Source: a virus. Taken from it: a stretch of DNA of 34,196 nucleotides. The notes under the pieces were generated by a model, which worked only from the letters and a program-made list of their open reading frames with translations, had not been told where the DNA came from and ran no database searches. The position numbers and the translations under genes were made by a program. The DNA lies in IMG/VR virus record IMGVR_UViG_3300025617_000062, positions 1-34,196 of that record; one strand, 5' to 3'. Below are positions 7,461-10,531 of this stretch, in pieces. Numbering within the stretch: position 1 is the stretch's first letter; every line of letters starts with the position of its first letter.

Positions 7461-7530
7461 CAAAAGTGAGGGAACATCACGCTTTCGCGCATTTGACAGT
7501 GTACCCCCGAAAAAAAATTTCACATAGGTG

Positions 7531-7561
7531 TTGACCTGTTGCGTCACACTGTGGTTATACT
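7531..7561 (+). promoter_or_regulatory. Rightward sigma70-type promoter of the ribozyme operon
   Basis: TTGACC (7531-7536) and TATACT (7556-7561) lie 19 bases apart (18 if TTATAC is used as the -10). An A/T tract precedes the -35 box. AGGT/ACCT repeats flank and overlap the -35 (7526-7537), a possible operator. RNA would start near 7568, giving about 180 bases of leader before the first ribozyme cut. Confidence 0.6.
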
Positions 7562-7745
7562 GTGTCCAACGAAACGGCGGCCCCGGTTCAAAGCTCTTTA
7601 AAAACCTGCTCACTGGTTATCTGGTCTGCGCCTTGACGGTGCTTCTGGTTTCCGGATGGTTTCAGCGCCTTCGGGGTTCCGCTGATTCAGCAAGGTCTCA
7701 CTCAAGCATTCGCATCACGCATCAACCAGCTAACTTTCCCCCCTA

Positions 7746-7795
7746 GTGTCTTAGGCAATCAGCCTGACTGATGAGCGGCAGTATCCGCGAAACAC
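7746..7795 (+). ncRNA. Type III hammerhead ribozyme in the operon leader
   Basis: All required core parts are present. Stem III is GTGT (7746-7749) with ACAC (7792-7795). The cleavage base is C17 = 7750 in GTC. Stem I is TTAGGC (7751-7756) with GCCTGA (7762-7767), 5-base loop. The core CTGATGA is at 7768-7774. Stem II is GCGG (7775-7778) with CCGC (7785-7788), 6-base loop. GAA plus A15.1 is at 7789-7792. Predicted cut: between 7750 and 7751, leaving a 60-base 5'-OH leader before the first ATG at 7811. Stem III is short (4 bp), so it should open after cleavage. Self-cleavage is inferred from the structure. Confidence 0.85.
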
Positions 7796-7810
7796 ACAGG
7801 GGAATACACA

Positions 7811-8173
7811 ATGACTAACTCAATTACATGTTCACGTGAAGAAACGCTCGTTATCAGAGACCACAAGGGATTCGGATTGCGCGATGACCGAAACAGAGAG
7901 ATCGGGTTTGGATTCACAGTTTGGCAGTTTGACACTGTCAAAGGTGACAATGCGGAATTGACCAAAAGAGTTTGGGTACGCCCTGAAGACTTCAAGCCAC
8001 AAACATTCACAGTGTTCCTTTGGAACGCAAGGAACGGCGAAGGATTCGGAACAGGCCCACGTGCCAAAGAGTTTGACACGCTTCTGGAGGCCATTGCATA
8101 CGGCAAGAAAAAGACTGCTGAAGCGGAACGCAAAGTCATCAAGAAAATCAGAAAGCTGATTGAAAGCGCATAA
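7811..8173 (+). CDS. Unknown early protein, first in the ribozyme operon
   Basis: This 120-residue protein is not one I recognise. The N-terminal two thirds is mixed beta (REIGFGFTVWQFDT, KRVWVRPEDF, FTVFLWNARN) and the last 35 residues form a charged helix (KKKTAEAERKVIKKIRKLIE). It has no signal peptide or membrane segment. The start follows AGGGGAA with good spacing. As the first gene behind the strong rightward promoter it is likely made early, and phage genes in such positions often act on host functions (inference). Its TAA stop abuts a type II hammerhead ribozyme. Confidence 0.8.
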   Translation: MTNSITCSREETLVIRDHKGFGLRDDRNREIGFGFTVWQFDTVKGDNAELTKRVWVRPEDFKPQTFTVFLWNARNGEGFGTGPRAKEFDTLLEAIAYGKKKTAEAERKVIKKIRKLIESA

Positions 8174-8233
8174 GTCGAAACGCTCTTCGGAGCGTCTAGC
8201 AGATACGGCCTACTGCTACTGATGAGACAGGCC
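8174..8233 (+). ncRNA. Type II hammerhead ribozyme, intergenic copy 1
   Basis: Stem II: GTC (8174-8176) with GAC (8226-8228). GAA 8177-8179, A15.1 8180. Stem III: ACGCTC (8180-8185), TTCG loop, GAGCGT (8190-8195). C17 is 8196, so the cut falls at 8196/8197. Stem I: TAGCAG (8197-8202) with CTGCTA (8213-8218). Core CTGATGA 8219-8225, canonical. Loop-I bases GGCCT (8207-8211) pair with tail AGGCC (8229-8233), a pseudoknot. The stop codon TAA ends at 8173, directly against stem II. Stem III carries an extra-stable C(UUCG)G loop. Confidence 0.88.
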
Positions 8234-8252
8234 ACACACAGGGGAATACAAA

Positions 8253-8513
8253 ATGAAAAACTACATCAAGCTGACCAAAACTAAGTCTACAGAATGGCTT
8301 GGAAACGGCATGGGAACAGACTCAGCAGAATGGGTTGTCAAAGGCAACGAACACATCTCCGTTTTAAAAGTTGGAGGTCGGTGGCTTGCCAAAGACACAT
8401 CGATACGAAATGCGGACGGCTTCACCAAAGTCATCGCCCGCGCTGATACCAAGCATGATCTAGTGCTTACCCTCAACCGCATTTACATTGCTGAGGGCAT
8501 CACAACTGCATAA
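8253..8513 (+). CDS. Unknown small early protein
   Basis: This 86-residue basic protein has no family I recognise. It is predicted to be a small beta sheet (EWVVKGNEHISVLKVGGRWL, FTKVIARADT) followed by a helix (KHDLVLTLNRIYIAEG). It has no signal or membrane segment. AGGGGAA precedes the ATG. It sits between type II ribozymes 1 and 2, so after cleavage it would be on its own 340-base RNA (8197-8536). An early role is inferred from the operon only. Confidence 0.78.
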   Translation: MKNYIKLTKTKSTEWLGNGMGTDSAEWVVKGNEHISVLKVGGRWLAKDTSIRNADGFTKVIARADTKHDLVLTLNRIYIAEGITTA

Positions 8514-8577
8514 GTCGAAACGCCCTCCGGGGCGTCTACAGGAATCTCACCCTACCTGTATTGATAAGACAGGGTGG
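8514..8577 (+). ncRNA. Type II hammerhead ribozyme, copy 2 (U3-A8 core)
   Basis: Stem II: GTC (8514-8516) with GAC (8568-8570). GAA 8517-8519, A15.1 8520. Stem III: ACGCCC (8520-8525), TCCG loop, GGGCGT (8530-8535). C17 8536; cut 8536/8537. Stem I: TACAGG (8537-8542) with CCTGTA (8555-8560). Core TTGATAA (8561-8567): C3 is U and G8 is A, a compensatory change. Pseudoknot: TCACCCT (8547-8553) with AGGGTGG (8571-8577), one G-U pair. It abuts the TAA at 8511-8513. The altered core pair could slow cleavage. Confidence 0.8.
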
Positions 8578-8596
8578 CACATACAGGGGAAATATC

Positions 8597-8836
8597 ATGG
8601 AAACACATGCAAACGTACTGCAAGTATCACGCGAACTGAACACACGTAATGGCAACCCACGCTGGATGCTATTGATCGGTAACAAGCCCGGCACAGCAGA
8701 GTGCTTTTACACACCCTGCAATGCCAATTGGGTGCAAGCGCATGACTGGCACACATTCGTTGGCCGTCGCGTCAAAGTCGATCACCGACTGGTACGCGGC
8801 AAGCACACCATCGAACGCATCCGCATTTGCCTATGA
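8597..8836 (+). CDS. Unknown small early protein, basic, beta-rich
   Basis: This 79-residue protein starts at 8597, behind AGGGGAAATATC. The frame extends upstream to 8561 but that part is ribozyme. The sequence is rich in Arg/His/Trp (GNPRWMLLIGNKPGTAECFY, WHTFVGRRVKVDHRLVRGKH, ERIRICL) and looks like a small beta barrel. The basic character could suit nucleic-acid binding (inference). I recognise no family. It is bounded by ribozymes 2 and 3. Confidence 0.72.
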   Translation: METHANVLQVSRELNTRNGNPRWMLLIGNKPGTAECFYTPCNANWVQAHDWHTFVGRRVKVDHRLVRGKHTIERIRICL

Positions 8837-8902
8837 GTCGAAACACACCTCCGGGTGTGTCGTCGGGAACCTCATCCTACCCGGCATGATTAGACAGGAT
8901 GA
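8837..8902 (+). ncRNA. Type II hammerhead ribozyme, copy 3 (A3-U8 core)
   Basis: Stem II: GTC (8837-8839) with GAC (8893-8895). GAA 8840-8842, A15.1 8843. Stem III: ACACACC (8843-8849), TCCG loop, GGTGTGT (8854-8860). C17 8861; cut 8861/8862. Stem I: GTCGGG (8862-8867) with CCCGGC (8880-8885), one U-G pair. Core ATGATTA (8886-8892): C3 is A and G8 is U, again compensatory. Pseudoknot: TCATCCT (8872-8878) with AGGATGA (8896-8902), 7 bp. It abuts the TGA at 8834-8836. Confidence 0.8.
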
Positions 8903-8921
8903 CACACACAGGGGAAGCATT

Positions 8922-9383
8922 ATGAATCACATGAAAATCATTCAGCGTATCAAGTCGGCTCAGTATGAAACTTTCAAAAGTGTCATGCGTGACAGCAGGC
9001 CCAAGCGTAAAGTCTCTGCCCGCGTAGGTCTCAACAAATCTATGCTCAAGGAGTTCAAAGCCCGCATGGATGAGCTTAACCAACCATTCTACTTCTGGAC
9101 TGAATCGCATGCAGACTGGAGCGACAGTGTGCTGGCGAATGATCTAGAGACCAACGGCTTTCAGGTTTACGTTAATTTCCCGTGGTATCCGAAAGGTGAC
9201 CGCCGGGAATTGCAGATGCACATGCATGCACAGCAAATGGTGCATGATCTTGAAGATGCCGGGCTGACCGCTGTCTGGCATAGCAACCAAGGCCGTGCAA
9301 TCGAGGTCATCATTGGTCTCGACAACAAAGCCACATCGGTTCTATCAATTCAGGTTGCTGAATTTGACGAGCTTTTTGCATAG
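8922..9383 (+). CDS. Unknown early protein
   Basis: This 153-residue protein starts at 8922 after AGGGGAAGCATT. The N-terminus is basic and helical (KIIQRIKSAQYETFKSVMRD, RPKRKVSARVGLNKSMLKEF). The C-terminal half alternates strands and helices: GFQVYVNFPWYPKGDRRELQ, then MVHDLEDAGLTAVW, then GRAIEVIIGL. I recognise no family, signal or membrane segment. The stop TAG shares its G with ribozyme copy 4. It is the largest gene of the ribozyme operon. Confidence 0.78.
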   Translation: MNHMKIIQRIKSAQYETFKSVMRDSRPKRKVSARVGLNKSMLKEFKARMDELNQPFYFWTESHADWSDSVLANDLETNGFQVYVNFPWYPKGDRRELQMHMHAQQMVHDLEDAGLTAVWHSNQGRAIEVIIGLDNKATSVLSIQVAEFDELFA

Positions 9384-9449
9384 ACGAAACGCACCTCAAG
9401 GTGCGTCATCGGGAACCTTGCCTTACCCGATCTGACGATGTCAGGGCAA
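9383..9449 (+). ncRNA. Type II hammerhead ribozyme, copy 4 (inverted stem II, bulge)
   Basis: GAC (9383-9385) pairs with GTC (9440-9442), the reverse of the other copies, and U9439 is left as a bulge after the core. GAA 9386-9388, A15.1 9389. Stem III: ACGCACC (9389-9395), TCAA loop, GGTGCGT (9400-9406). C17 9407; cut 9407/9408. Stem I: ATCGGG (9408-9413) with CCCGAT (9426-9431). Core CTGACGA (9432-9438) keeps C3-G8. Pseudoknot: TTGCCTT (9418-9424) with AGGGCAA (9443-9449), one U-G pair. The first G is the last base of the TAG stop. Confidence 0.78.
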
Positions 9450-9467
9450 TCACATAGGGGAAATACA

Positions 9468-9836
9468 ATGGAAAATATTCTTAATGAAAAAGTATGCGGA
9501 ATTCAGGCTGACCAACTGCTGTTCACAGCGCAGGTCATCAATGAATACTTCCAAGAATTGGACGACGATCACGATTTGAAGTCATTCAGAAGACAGCACG
9601 GCATGGCTCATACCAGAGACAAGATCTCAGAGTTGGCTGTGTCATGCGAACAGGTCTACAACATGGTCAAGGATGAGCTTGATTATGATGAACCCTTCGA
9701 CTGTGACTTTGTCCCAATGTTCATGGAAGAGTGCGTACTGCACACAGAGTTCAGAGTGTTTGGTGATGAGCTAGAAAGCTCGACAAAATATTTGTTTGGG
9801 TTGCTCAAGCGTCACTACTTGAACGATTACGTATAG
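9468..9836 (+). CDS. Unknown acidic early protein
   Basis: This 122-residue, strongly acidic protein is predicted all-helical: NILNEKVCGIQADQLLFTAQ, VINEYFQELDDDHDLKSF and VYNMVKDELDYDEPFDCDF, ending VFGDELESSTKYLFGLLKRH. It contains four cysteines. It starts at 9468 behind AGGGGAAATACA. Small acidic helical early phage proteins often act by binding host enzymes or mimicking DNA, but nothing here proves it. I recognise no family. The TAG stop shares its G with ribozyme copy 5. Confidence 0.78.
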   Translation: MENILNEKVCGIQADQLLFTAQVINEYFQELDDDHDLKSFRRQHGMAHTRDKISELAVSCEQVYNMVKDELDYDEPFDCDFVPMFMEECVLHTEFRVFGDELESSTKYLFGLLKRHYLNDYV

Positions 9837-9896
9837 TCGAAACCGGGTTCGCCCGGTCTACGGGACATGACCTACCCGTATTGATAAGACAGGTCG
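9836..9896 (+). ncRNA. Type II hammerhead ribozyme, copy 5 (U3-A8 core)
   Basis: Stem II: GTC (9836-9838) with GAC (9888-9890). GAA 9839-9841, A15.1 9842. Stem III: ACCGGG (9842-9847), TTCG loop, CCCGGT (9852-9857). C17 9858; cut 9858/9859. Stem I: TACGGG (9859-9864) with CCCGTA (9875-9880). Core TTGATAA (9881-9887), U3-A8. Pseudoknot: TGACCT (9868-9873) with AGGTCG (9891-9896), one U-G pair. The first G is also the last base of the TAG stop. Confidence 0.8.
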
Positions 9897-9917: not shown

Positions 9918-10301
9918 ATGAAACACGCAATCGACGTTGAATACTTAGAAGGTGGCAATGTCACGTATTACGCAAACAGCAAGCAATCAGCAGATGATTT
10001 TGCGGAGCGGGTGTTTGAAACCGGGCCGCAAGCATTGTCTGCTGTCGTGCGTCTTGCAAATGCATCAGAGTCGAACGACATGGACGACGATGCAACGCCC
10101 ACTGGAGACGCGCAGTGCGATCAAATCCTATCGTTCATGAAACGCAATGGATCGATCACAAGCTGGGATGCAATGCACGAGTGCGCATGCATGCGGCTCG
10201 CGTCCCGCATCTATGATCTCAGGTGCAGGGGATATAACATCGTCAGCACAATGATCAAAAATAACGGCAAGCGATACGCGCAGTACCGCCTCAAGGAGTA
10301 A
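9918..10301 (+). CDS. HTH_39-like helix-turn-helix early protein
   Basis: This 127-residue protein has an unassigned N-terminal part (YLEGGNVTYYANSKQSADDF) and an acidic linker with DMDDDA. The C-terminal domain (about 64-127) reads CDQILSFMKRNGSITSWDAM, then MRLASRIYDLRCRGYNIVST and a final YAQYRLKE. That is the pattern of the small winged HTH domain I know as HTH_39, common in phage early operons. It may bind DNA as a local regulator (inference). It starts behind AAGGGGAAATAC and overlaps the RBS of the last gene. Confidence 0.72.
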   Translation: MKHAIDVEYLEGGNVTYYANSKQSADDFAERVFETGPQALSAVVRLANASESNDMDDDATPTGDAQCDQILSFMKRNGSITSWDAMHECACMRLASRIYDLRCRGYNIVSTMIKNNGKRYAQYRLKE

Positions 10302-10302
10302 A

Positions 10303-10485
10303 ATGTTCAACATCAAAATCAATCCGCTAGATGCCTTAGCGGATGCAAAATCAATCATGCTAAGGCAAGGCCTGCACATGATGCACATCAGCCGCACGCA
10401 TCAGGGGTATCGTGCGGTCAGACCTAATCAAAAACACTTTGGAACGGTGATGGCGGTCGTGTATCGTCACTCCCTGACTATCTAA
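10303..10485 (+). CDS. Small unknown protein, last in the ribozyme operon
   Basis: This 60-residue basic protein (MFNIKINPLDALADAKSIML, HISRTHQGYRAVRPNQK) is read from an ATG one base after the previous stop, with AAGGAG inside the end of that gene. It is the only junction in the operon without a ribozyme, so it stays joined to the HTH gene on one RNA and is probably translationally coupled. No family is recognised. It is followed at once by the ACACAC hairpin and terminator. Confidence 0.65.
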   Translation: MFNIKINPLDALADAKSIMLRQGLHMMHISRTHQGYRAVRPNQKHFGTVMAVVYRHSLTI

Positions 10486-10502
10486 CACACTCCCCTGTGT
10501 GT
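10485..10502 (+). promoter_or_regulatory. ACACAC/GTGTGT hairpin with anti-RBS sequence
   Basis: ACACAC (10485-10490) and GTGTGT (10497-10502) form a stem around the loop TCCCCT. The string TCCCCTGTGTGT (10491-10502) is the exact reverse complement of ACACACAGGGGA found before the starts of the first, second and fourth genes (7792-7803, 8234-8245, 8904-8915). It could pair with those ribosome-binding sites, as feedback or as a long-range mRNA contact. Confidence 0.45.
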
Positions 10503-10507
10503 CTTTA

Positions 10508-10531
10508 GCCCGGTTCGCCGGGCTTTTTTTT
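10508..10531 (+). terminator. Strong intrinsic terminator of the ribozyme operon
   Basis: GCCCGG (10508-10513), TTCG loop and CCGGGC (10518-10523) are followed by eight T residues (10524-10531). This is a textbook rho-independent terminator and marks the 3' end of the rightward operon that begins at 7531. Confidence 0.92.

Follow-up and report, generated by a model that had tools for sequence, protein, structure and literature searches.

Early mRNA of bacteriophage T7 is polycistronic and is cut at gene junctions by host RNase III, with hairpins at the 3′ ends of the products. In engineered insulators of the RiboJ type, a hammerhead ribozyme between the promoter or upstream RNA and the Shine-Dalgarno sequence standardizes the 5′ end of the message. 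The available text of Perreault et al. 2011 (PMC3088659) describes multiple hammerheads that flank individual genes or short blocks of genes in prophages and proposes that they process transcripts into single-gene mRNAs. According to that text, tandem arrays cleave in vitro, a triple array from Agrobacterium cleaves in E. coli, and phage hammerheads exhibit U3-A8 covariation in the core and a pseudoknot between loop I and the tail. It also describes HHphage, a hammerhead of haloviruses HF1 and HF2 for which the mapped 5′ end of a transcript lies at most 3 nt from the cut. What hammerheads do in phages and bacteria is regarded as an open question in a 2017 review (PMC6155905). Here, we analyze a viral sequence of 34,196 nt (IMG/VR record IMGVR_UViG_3300025617_000062, positions 1–34,196; hereafter, the window) and confirm that positions 7746–9896 contain a type III hammerhead in the leader of an operon and type II hammerheads at five of its six gene gaps, all on the plus strand.

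An earlier annotation of the window, which we refer to as the sequence-only reading, held that phage hammerheads usually occur singly and that their systematic use in an operon was undescribed. This was wrong, since Perreault et al. 2011 (PMC3088659) reported clusters in which hammerheads of types I, II, and III lie close together on one strand and flank single genes or blocks. The window array is a member of this group and exceeds its description in scale and regularity: the largest cluster in the available text is a triple, whereas the window array occupies five of six gaps plus the leader and relatives contain up to 31 copies. An A3-U8 core, the registration of stop codons, the order of hammerhead types, and the location in T7-like early regions likewise go beyond that text. 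HHphage resembles the window array in that it directly precedes the opening gene of a polycistronic early transcript and differs in being a single copy with a divergent core (PMC3088659). The likeness to RNase III processing of T7 consists of predicted cuts at gene junctions and hairpins at 3′ ends; in another virus contig and in cultured pelagiphages, the sites also lie upstream of the RNA polymerase gene. Unlike in T7, whose early region lacks hammerheads, the catalyst would be the RNA itself and the ends would be 5′-OH and 2′,3′-cyclic phosphate. The window sites are hammerheads rather than double-stranded sites for host RNase III, which places the operon outside the T7 class even though it would work alike. 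As with RiboJ, each gene would receive a standard 5′ end; RiboJ is an engineered type III hammerhead, whereas the window array is natural, tandem, and of type II, and would also form the 3′ end of the upstream mRNA.

Hammerhead ribozymes at gene junctions

A structural descriptor applied to both strands of the window identified exactly five type II hammerheads and one type III hammerhead and no others, at the six positions named in the sequence-only reading. The cuts that we predicted, after nucleotides 7750, 8196, 8536, 8861, 9407, and 9858, were identical to those it had proposed. The type II hammerheads are located at 8174–8233 (core CUGAUGA; pseudoknot GGCCU/AGGCC; predicted cut after C8196), 8514–8577 (UUGAUAA; UCACCCU/AGGGUGG; C8536), 8837–8902 (AUGAUUA; UCAUCCU/AGGAUGA; C8861), 9383–9449 (CUGACGA, with an extra U after A9; UUGCCUU/AGGGCAA; C9407), and 9836–9896 (UUGAUAA; UGACCU/AGGUCG; C9858). 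All five contain the type II core (C3 U4 G5 A6 N7 G8 A9 / G12 A13 A14, with compensatory changes only), stems I and III closed by loops, an open stem II, the A15.1-U16.1 pair, and H17. The type III hammerhead (7746–7795), which was identified by the descriptor, has an open stem III, a full core, and loop-closed stems I and II; its stems I, II, and inner III comprise 6, 4, and 4 bp, respectively, and the predicted cut follows C7750. Gaps 1–5 are 79–85 nt in length, and one type II hammerhead fills each of them from stop codon to Shine-Dalgarno sequence. In all five copies, the stop codon of the preceding gene either reaches stem II exactly or extends one base into it (overlap of 0–1 nt). Gap 6, which separates genes 6 and 7, is 1 nt long and lacks a ribozyme.

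No match to a stricter descriptor was found in 60 mononucleotide shuffles. Across both strands of 1.86 Mb of fetched loci, the descriptor identified 261 type II and 16 type III hammerheads, compared with none of either type in dinucleotide shuffles. Comparison with Rfam, a check suggested by the sequence-only reading, gave scores on both sides of the gathering threshold. Rfam listed four of the five type II copies in the window, of which only that at 8173–8236 (RF02276; 37.7 bits) exceeds the gathering score of 37; those at 9383, 8837, and 8514 scored 35.8, 24.5, and 23.8 bits, and neither the type II copy at 9836 nor the type III copy at 7746 was listed at E ≤ 10. Because only one window hammerhead lies above the gathering score, curated thresholds under-count this family, which suggests that many such copies are hidden by Rfam thresholds. 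We built a covariance model from the window and its close relatives. The five window type II copies, which are themselves training sequences, score 67.6–83.8 bits with this family model (E ≤ 1e-14; 83.8 bits for the copy at 8514 and 76.7 bits for that at 9836), and across 100 loci the model matches 266 sites at E ≤ 0.01.

Covariation of the core and pseudoknot

The seven-base core that the sequence-only reading had assigned to each copy is indeed present, but it is not identical among copies. The window cores differ at positions 3 and 8, such that the 3-8 pair changes on both sides (C-G, U-A, A-U, C-G, and U-A, in order), and the copy at 9383 carries its extra U. One or more additional bases between A9 and stem II are also found in a second ribozyme of contigs L038 and L057 and in one ribozyme of contig L084. 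In every type II copy of the window, loop I can form a pseudoknot of 5–7 bp with sequence 3′ of stem II; such pseudoknots are common, but not universal, in type II hammerheads.

Alignment of 124 distinct relatives revealed that 96.7% of pair cells form, as opposed to 69.9% in shuffled and at most 44.5% in slid versions. Changes on both sides were observed in 21 of 23 pairs. The pseudoknot covaries in seven of seven pairs, though it is absent from the covariance model. The 3-8 core pair is formed in all 124 copies (CG in 113, UA in 6, AU in 4, and UG in 1), and 176 distinct copies found without requiring this pair contain no mismatch save two U-G wobbles. In an independent test of the pseudoknot, at least 5 bp formed in 80% of copies with their own tail versus 20% with swapped tails. 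Orthologous copies in the window and its relatives differ by double changes, for example from CGCACC/GGUGCG to CGCGCC/GGCGCG in stem III and from U3-A8 to C3-G8 in the core. The hammerhead structures predicted for the window are well supported by these comparisons.

Placement of ribozymes and exchange of genes

Of the 162 distinct copies that have a stop codon nearby, 101 have it in register with stem II (offset 0 or +1); the proportion is 53 of 97 among copies outside the search pattern and 69 of 117 among cluster representatives. In mixed arrays, type III comes before type II in 24 of 25 cases, a count whose effective number is smaller because the contigs are related. The absolute rule that type III always comes first held for 11 of 11 arrays in the first sample and was rejected in the wider sample, which includes III-III and III-III-III arrays ('33' and '333') and one II-III array ('23'). 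Among rules of type order, only the placement of type III before type II survives.

Similar ribozymes frequently lie between dissimilar genes. Among 91 scorable pairs of similar ribozymes, which are not independent and come from a few related contigs, 46 share both neighboring genes, 12 share the upstream gene only, 17 share the downstream gene only, and 16 share neither. One (29 pairs) or both (16 pairs) of the neighbors are unrelated in 45 of the 91. As judged from these comparisons, gene exchange has occurred both upstream and downstream of ribozymes that were kept, which rules out the notion that a ribozyme is tied to its downstream gene alone.

Genes and leader of the operon

The operon contains seven genes on the plus strand. 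Gene 1 (7811–8173) encodes a 120-amino acid protein of unknown function with no PHROG match and no Pfam match above the cut-off. Proteins encoded by genes 2 (8253–8513; 86 amino acids), 4 (8922–9383; 153 amino acids), and 5 (9468–9836; 122 amino acids) are likewise unknown according to PHROG and Pfam searches, and gene 3 (8597–8836; 79 amino acids) corresponds to phrog_20597, a family of unknown function. Gene 6 (9918–10301) encodes a winged helix-turn-helix protein (HTH_39; PF14090, 8.7e-16; phrog_4973, 5.7e-19) and is followed by gene 7 (10303–10485; 60 amino acids). A terminator scan placed a strong intrinsic terminator at the end of the operon (10507–10531); weak Rfam matches to betaproteobacterial small RNAs at 10479–10531 result from its hairpin. 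Terminase (57%) and capsid (67%) identify the phage as a distant HTVC010P-like podovirus. No T7-like RNA polymerase was detected in the window, and blastn of the operon against named phages gave no match. It is plausible that the operon is a phage early operon.

At the head of the operon lies a putative promoter (TTGACC-19-TATACT; 7531–7561). Its TTGAC is kept in five aligned leaders and its –10 region is variable; the 19-nt spacer falls outside the 16–18-nt rule of our promoter scan, which for this reason did not list the site. A boxA-like element, GCTCTTTAAAAACC (core written GCTCTTTAA), follows at 7593–7606 and is separated from the type III cut by 157 nt in the window and in contigs L084, L038, and L057 alike. 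The type III hammerhead is conserved in the five aligned leaders. So is the leader of ~180 nt that lies 5′ of it: this region (window 7505–7745), with the boxA-like GCTCTTTAA inside, is strongly conserved in five contigs and is possibly a structured leader RNA, for example one that acts in antitermination. A cut at 7750 would detach this non-coding leader from the transcript and free it as a fragment.

The AGGGG of gene 1 is able to pair with CCCC before the type III cut, and related leaders contain the compensatory states CCCC/GGGG, CCUC/GAGG, and CUCA/UGAG at this pairing. As a general rule, unmasking of the Shine-Dalgarno sequence through type III cutting was rejected: swapped strands pair equally well (0.42 vs 0.44; 119 examples). 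Folding also predicts no release of the Shine-Dalgarno sequence after the cut (0.28 vs 0.31 unpaired).

Distribution in other phages

A narrow type II pattern matched 97 virus contigs, and each of two type III patterns gave at least 120 matches. The largest array, in IMGVR_UViG_3300033551_000003, comprises 31 type II model matches on one strand, interleaved with genes in one 18.6-kb block (42610–61250). The genes amid these ribozymes encode an HNH endonuclease, an ATPase, a transposase-like protein, and unknown proteins, and the array lies on the strand opposite the helicase genes. In IMGVR_UViG_3300047297_000136, a type III and nine type II hammerheads lie between early genes, and genes for an integrase and a T7-like RNA polymerase come next; the model has no matches elsewhere in this 43-kb contig. 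At eleven further RNA polymerase loci, hammerheads precede the polymerase on the same strand. Contig L339 has this layout built on type I: five type I hammerheads in a row, a type III, and another type I lie upstream of an RNA polymerase match. A stretch of contig JAHCSE010000023.1 from a Patescibacteria metagenome-assembled genome (4972–7680 of the fetched locus L109) contains four type II and two type I hammerheads and perhaps belongs to a phage of Patescibacteria.

Eight cultured pelagiphages (HTVC031P, Eistla, HTVC019P, HTVC109P, HTVC022P, HTVC201P, HTVC168P, and HTVC021P) have early regions with hammerheads of types I, II, and III. Seventeen copies are sense and none antisense, compared with 0.15 per shuffle. 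Most lie between annotated genes; two copies in HTVC109P overlap annotated starts. In HTVC031P, no hammerhead was found from 5.5 kb up to ~40,986, where the last copy precedes the early genes at the end of the genome. The type III hammerheads of this phage (MH598800), at about 40986 and 296, occupy both ends of the linear record, which would be the head of the early region if the genome is circular. Hammerheads are not a property of the HTVC010P-like lineage, as HTVC010P has none and Lederberg has one weak type I-like match. The early regions of T7, Bordetella BB8, Pasto, LUZ100, and YIMV22061 contain no hammerheads.

Discussion

The hammerheads probably serve to let one long transcript cut itself into single-gene messages. 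In the model that we propose, a single RNA is transcribed from the operon, and every hammerhead in it self-cleaves cotranscriptionally. Cleavage by a type II copy would leave the upstream mRNA with a GC-rich stem III hairpin of 6–7 bp, 22–25 nt after the stop codon; predicted stabilities of these 3′ hairpins range from –9.0 to –12.1 kcal/mol. The downstream mRNA would begin with a fully paired 5′-OH end within the 6-bp stem I hairpin, the loop of which could stay pseudoknotted, followed by the Shine-Dalgarno sequence. The type III copy would remove the leader. Its product has no predicted 3′ hairpin and needs none, because no gene lies upstream. The products would be those foreseen in the sequence-only reading, namely one bicistronic and five monocistronic messages, whose structured ends would be uniform, with the addition of the released ~180-nt leader fragment. 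Host RNases would be dispensable, and the role of RNase III on T7 early mRNA would be performed by RNA.

Exonucleases are slowed by hairpins at 3′ ends, and RNase E and RppH act poorly on 5′ ends that are paired and unphosphorylated. These properties favor constitutive, host RNase-independent self-cleavage into separate, stable mRNAs as the best explanation for the array, a reading that we consider likely. Each gene would be insulated from its neighbors and could therefore be swapped as a cassette between ribozyme junctions. The motifs, structures, covariation, positions, and gene swapping are established by sequence comparison.

Several points weigh against this explanation. Coverage of the operon is incomplete because the junction of genes 6 and 7 lacks a ribozyme, and the promoter is merely consensus-like. 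The type III copy has imperfections in its extended stem III, and the U inserted between A9 and stem II at 9383 is kept in related contigs; the hammerhead of chrysanthemum chlorotic mottle viroid has an extra nucleotide at the same place and cleaves more slowly. Cultured HTVC010P-like relatives (by capsid) contain no type II or III hammerheads. We infer from sequence that the six window copies cleave, and we infer in turn that their mRNAs are stabilized and insulated. Of 18 hammerheads that fit the consensus, 4 failed to cleave in vitro in the work of Perreault et al. 2011 (PMC3088659).

The exchange of genes around kept ribozymes could also mean that the ribozymes are mainly seams for recombination, i.e., short conserved junctions carrying a stop codon and Shine-Dalgarno sequence, with cleavage selfish or secondary. 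Similar ribozymes between unrelated genes and the overlap of the stop codon with the ribozyme start are consistent with this idea. We nevertheless consider it unlikely: a mere recombination patch has no need of the strong compensatory selection on the catalytic core and tertiary pseudoknot, stem primary sequence is unconserved so that homology is short, and the ribozyme pairs come from a few related contigs. The proximity of the stop codon to stem II also raises the idea of conditional switches, in which cleavage depends on a ligand or on ribosomes that end translation at the overlapping stop codon or, for type III, exposes the Shine-Dalgarno sequence of gene 1. The AGGGG/CCCC pairing and its compensatory states in related leaders fit such a switch; the performance of swapped strands, the lack of predicted release, and the absence of an extra ligand-sized domain make it very unlikely.

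Hammerhead chemistry yields 5′-OH and 2′,3′-cyclic phosphate ends, which are substrates of RtcB, and hammerheads flank each of genes 1–5. Units between two cuts might accordingly be circularized into exonuclease-proof single-gene mRNAs, an idea in keeping with the association of hammerheads with circular RNAs of viroids and related elements (PMC7761336). Hairpins at both ends would hinder joining, however, no RNA ligase was identified in the present analysis, and the search for circular or spliced products described in the available text of Perreault et al. 2011 (PMC3088659) found none; we regard circular mRNAs as even less probable than switches. That the motifs are relics or chance occurrences with no present function, as the several copies below the Rfam threshold might indicate, is scarcely credible in view of their absence from shuffles, the strong covariation that contradicts it, and the location of every copy on the sense strand at junctions. 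Constitutive self-cleavage into insulated mRNAs is thus the explanation that we prefer.

Clustered phage hammerheads, pseudoknots, U3-A8 cores, and the idea of single-gene mRNAs have been known since 2011 from the available text of PMC3088659. The present analysis adds arrays of up to 31 copies, the occupation of nearly all early-gene junctions ahead of a T7-like RNA polymerase, and eight cultured pelagiphages that carry smaller sets. It further adds stop-codon registration in more than half of cases, the order of type III before type II, and the keeping of ribozymes amid gene swaps. In the partial literature available, which excluded supplementary files, we found no report of A3-U8 cores, arrays of this scale, stop-codon registration, or arrays in pelagiphage or T7-like early regions. 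Searches for hammerheads together with pelagiphages or Autographiviridae returned nothing relevant in a literature set that left most subscription journals outside.

It is tempting to speculate that many phages, T7-like phages and cultured pelagiphages included, mature their early mRNA through ribozymes only, a proposal for which we see an even balance. Hammerheads at early-gene junctions, present at almost all of them in the fullest cases and reaching 31 copies per genome in the extreme, would then provide host RNase-free processing, decay-resistant 5′-OH and 3′-hairpin ends, and exchangeable, insulated gene cassettes. The arrays offer natural parts for ribozyme-insulated operons. Operons with hammerheads at most junctions, together with cultured ocean pelagiphages that carry them, make the purpose of phage hammerheads directly testable.

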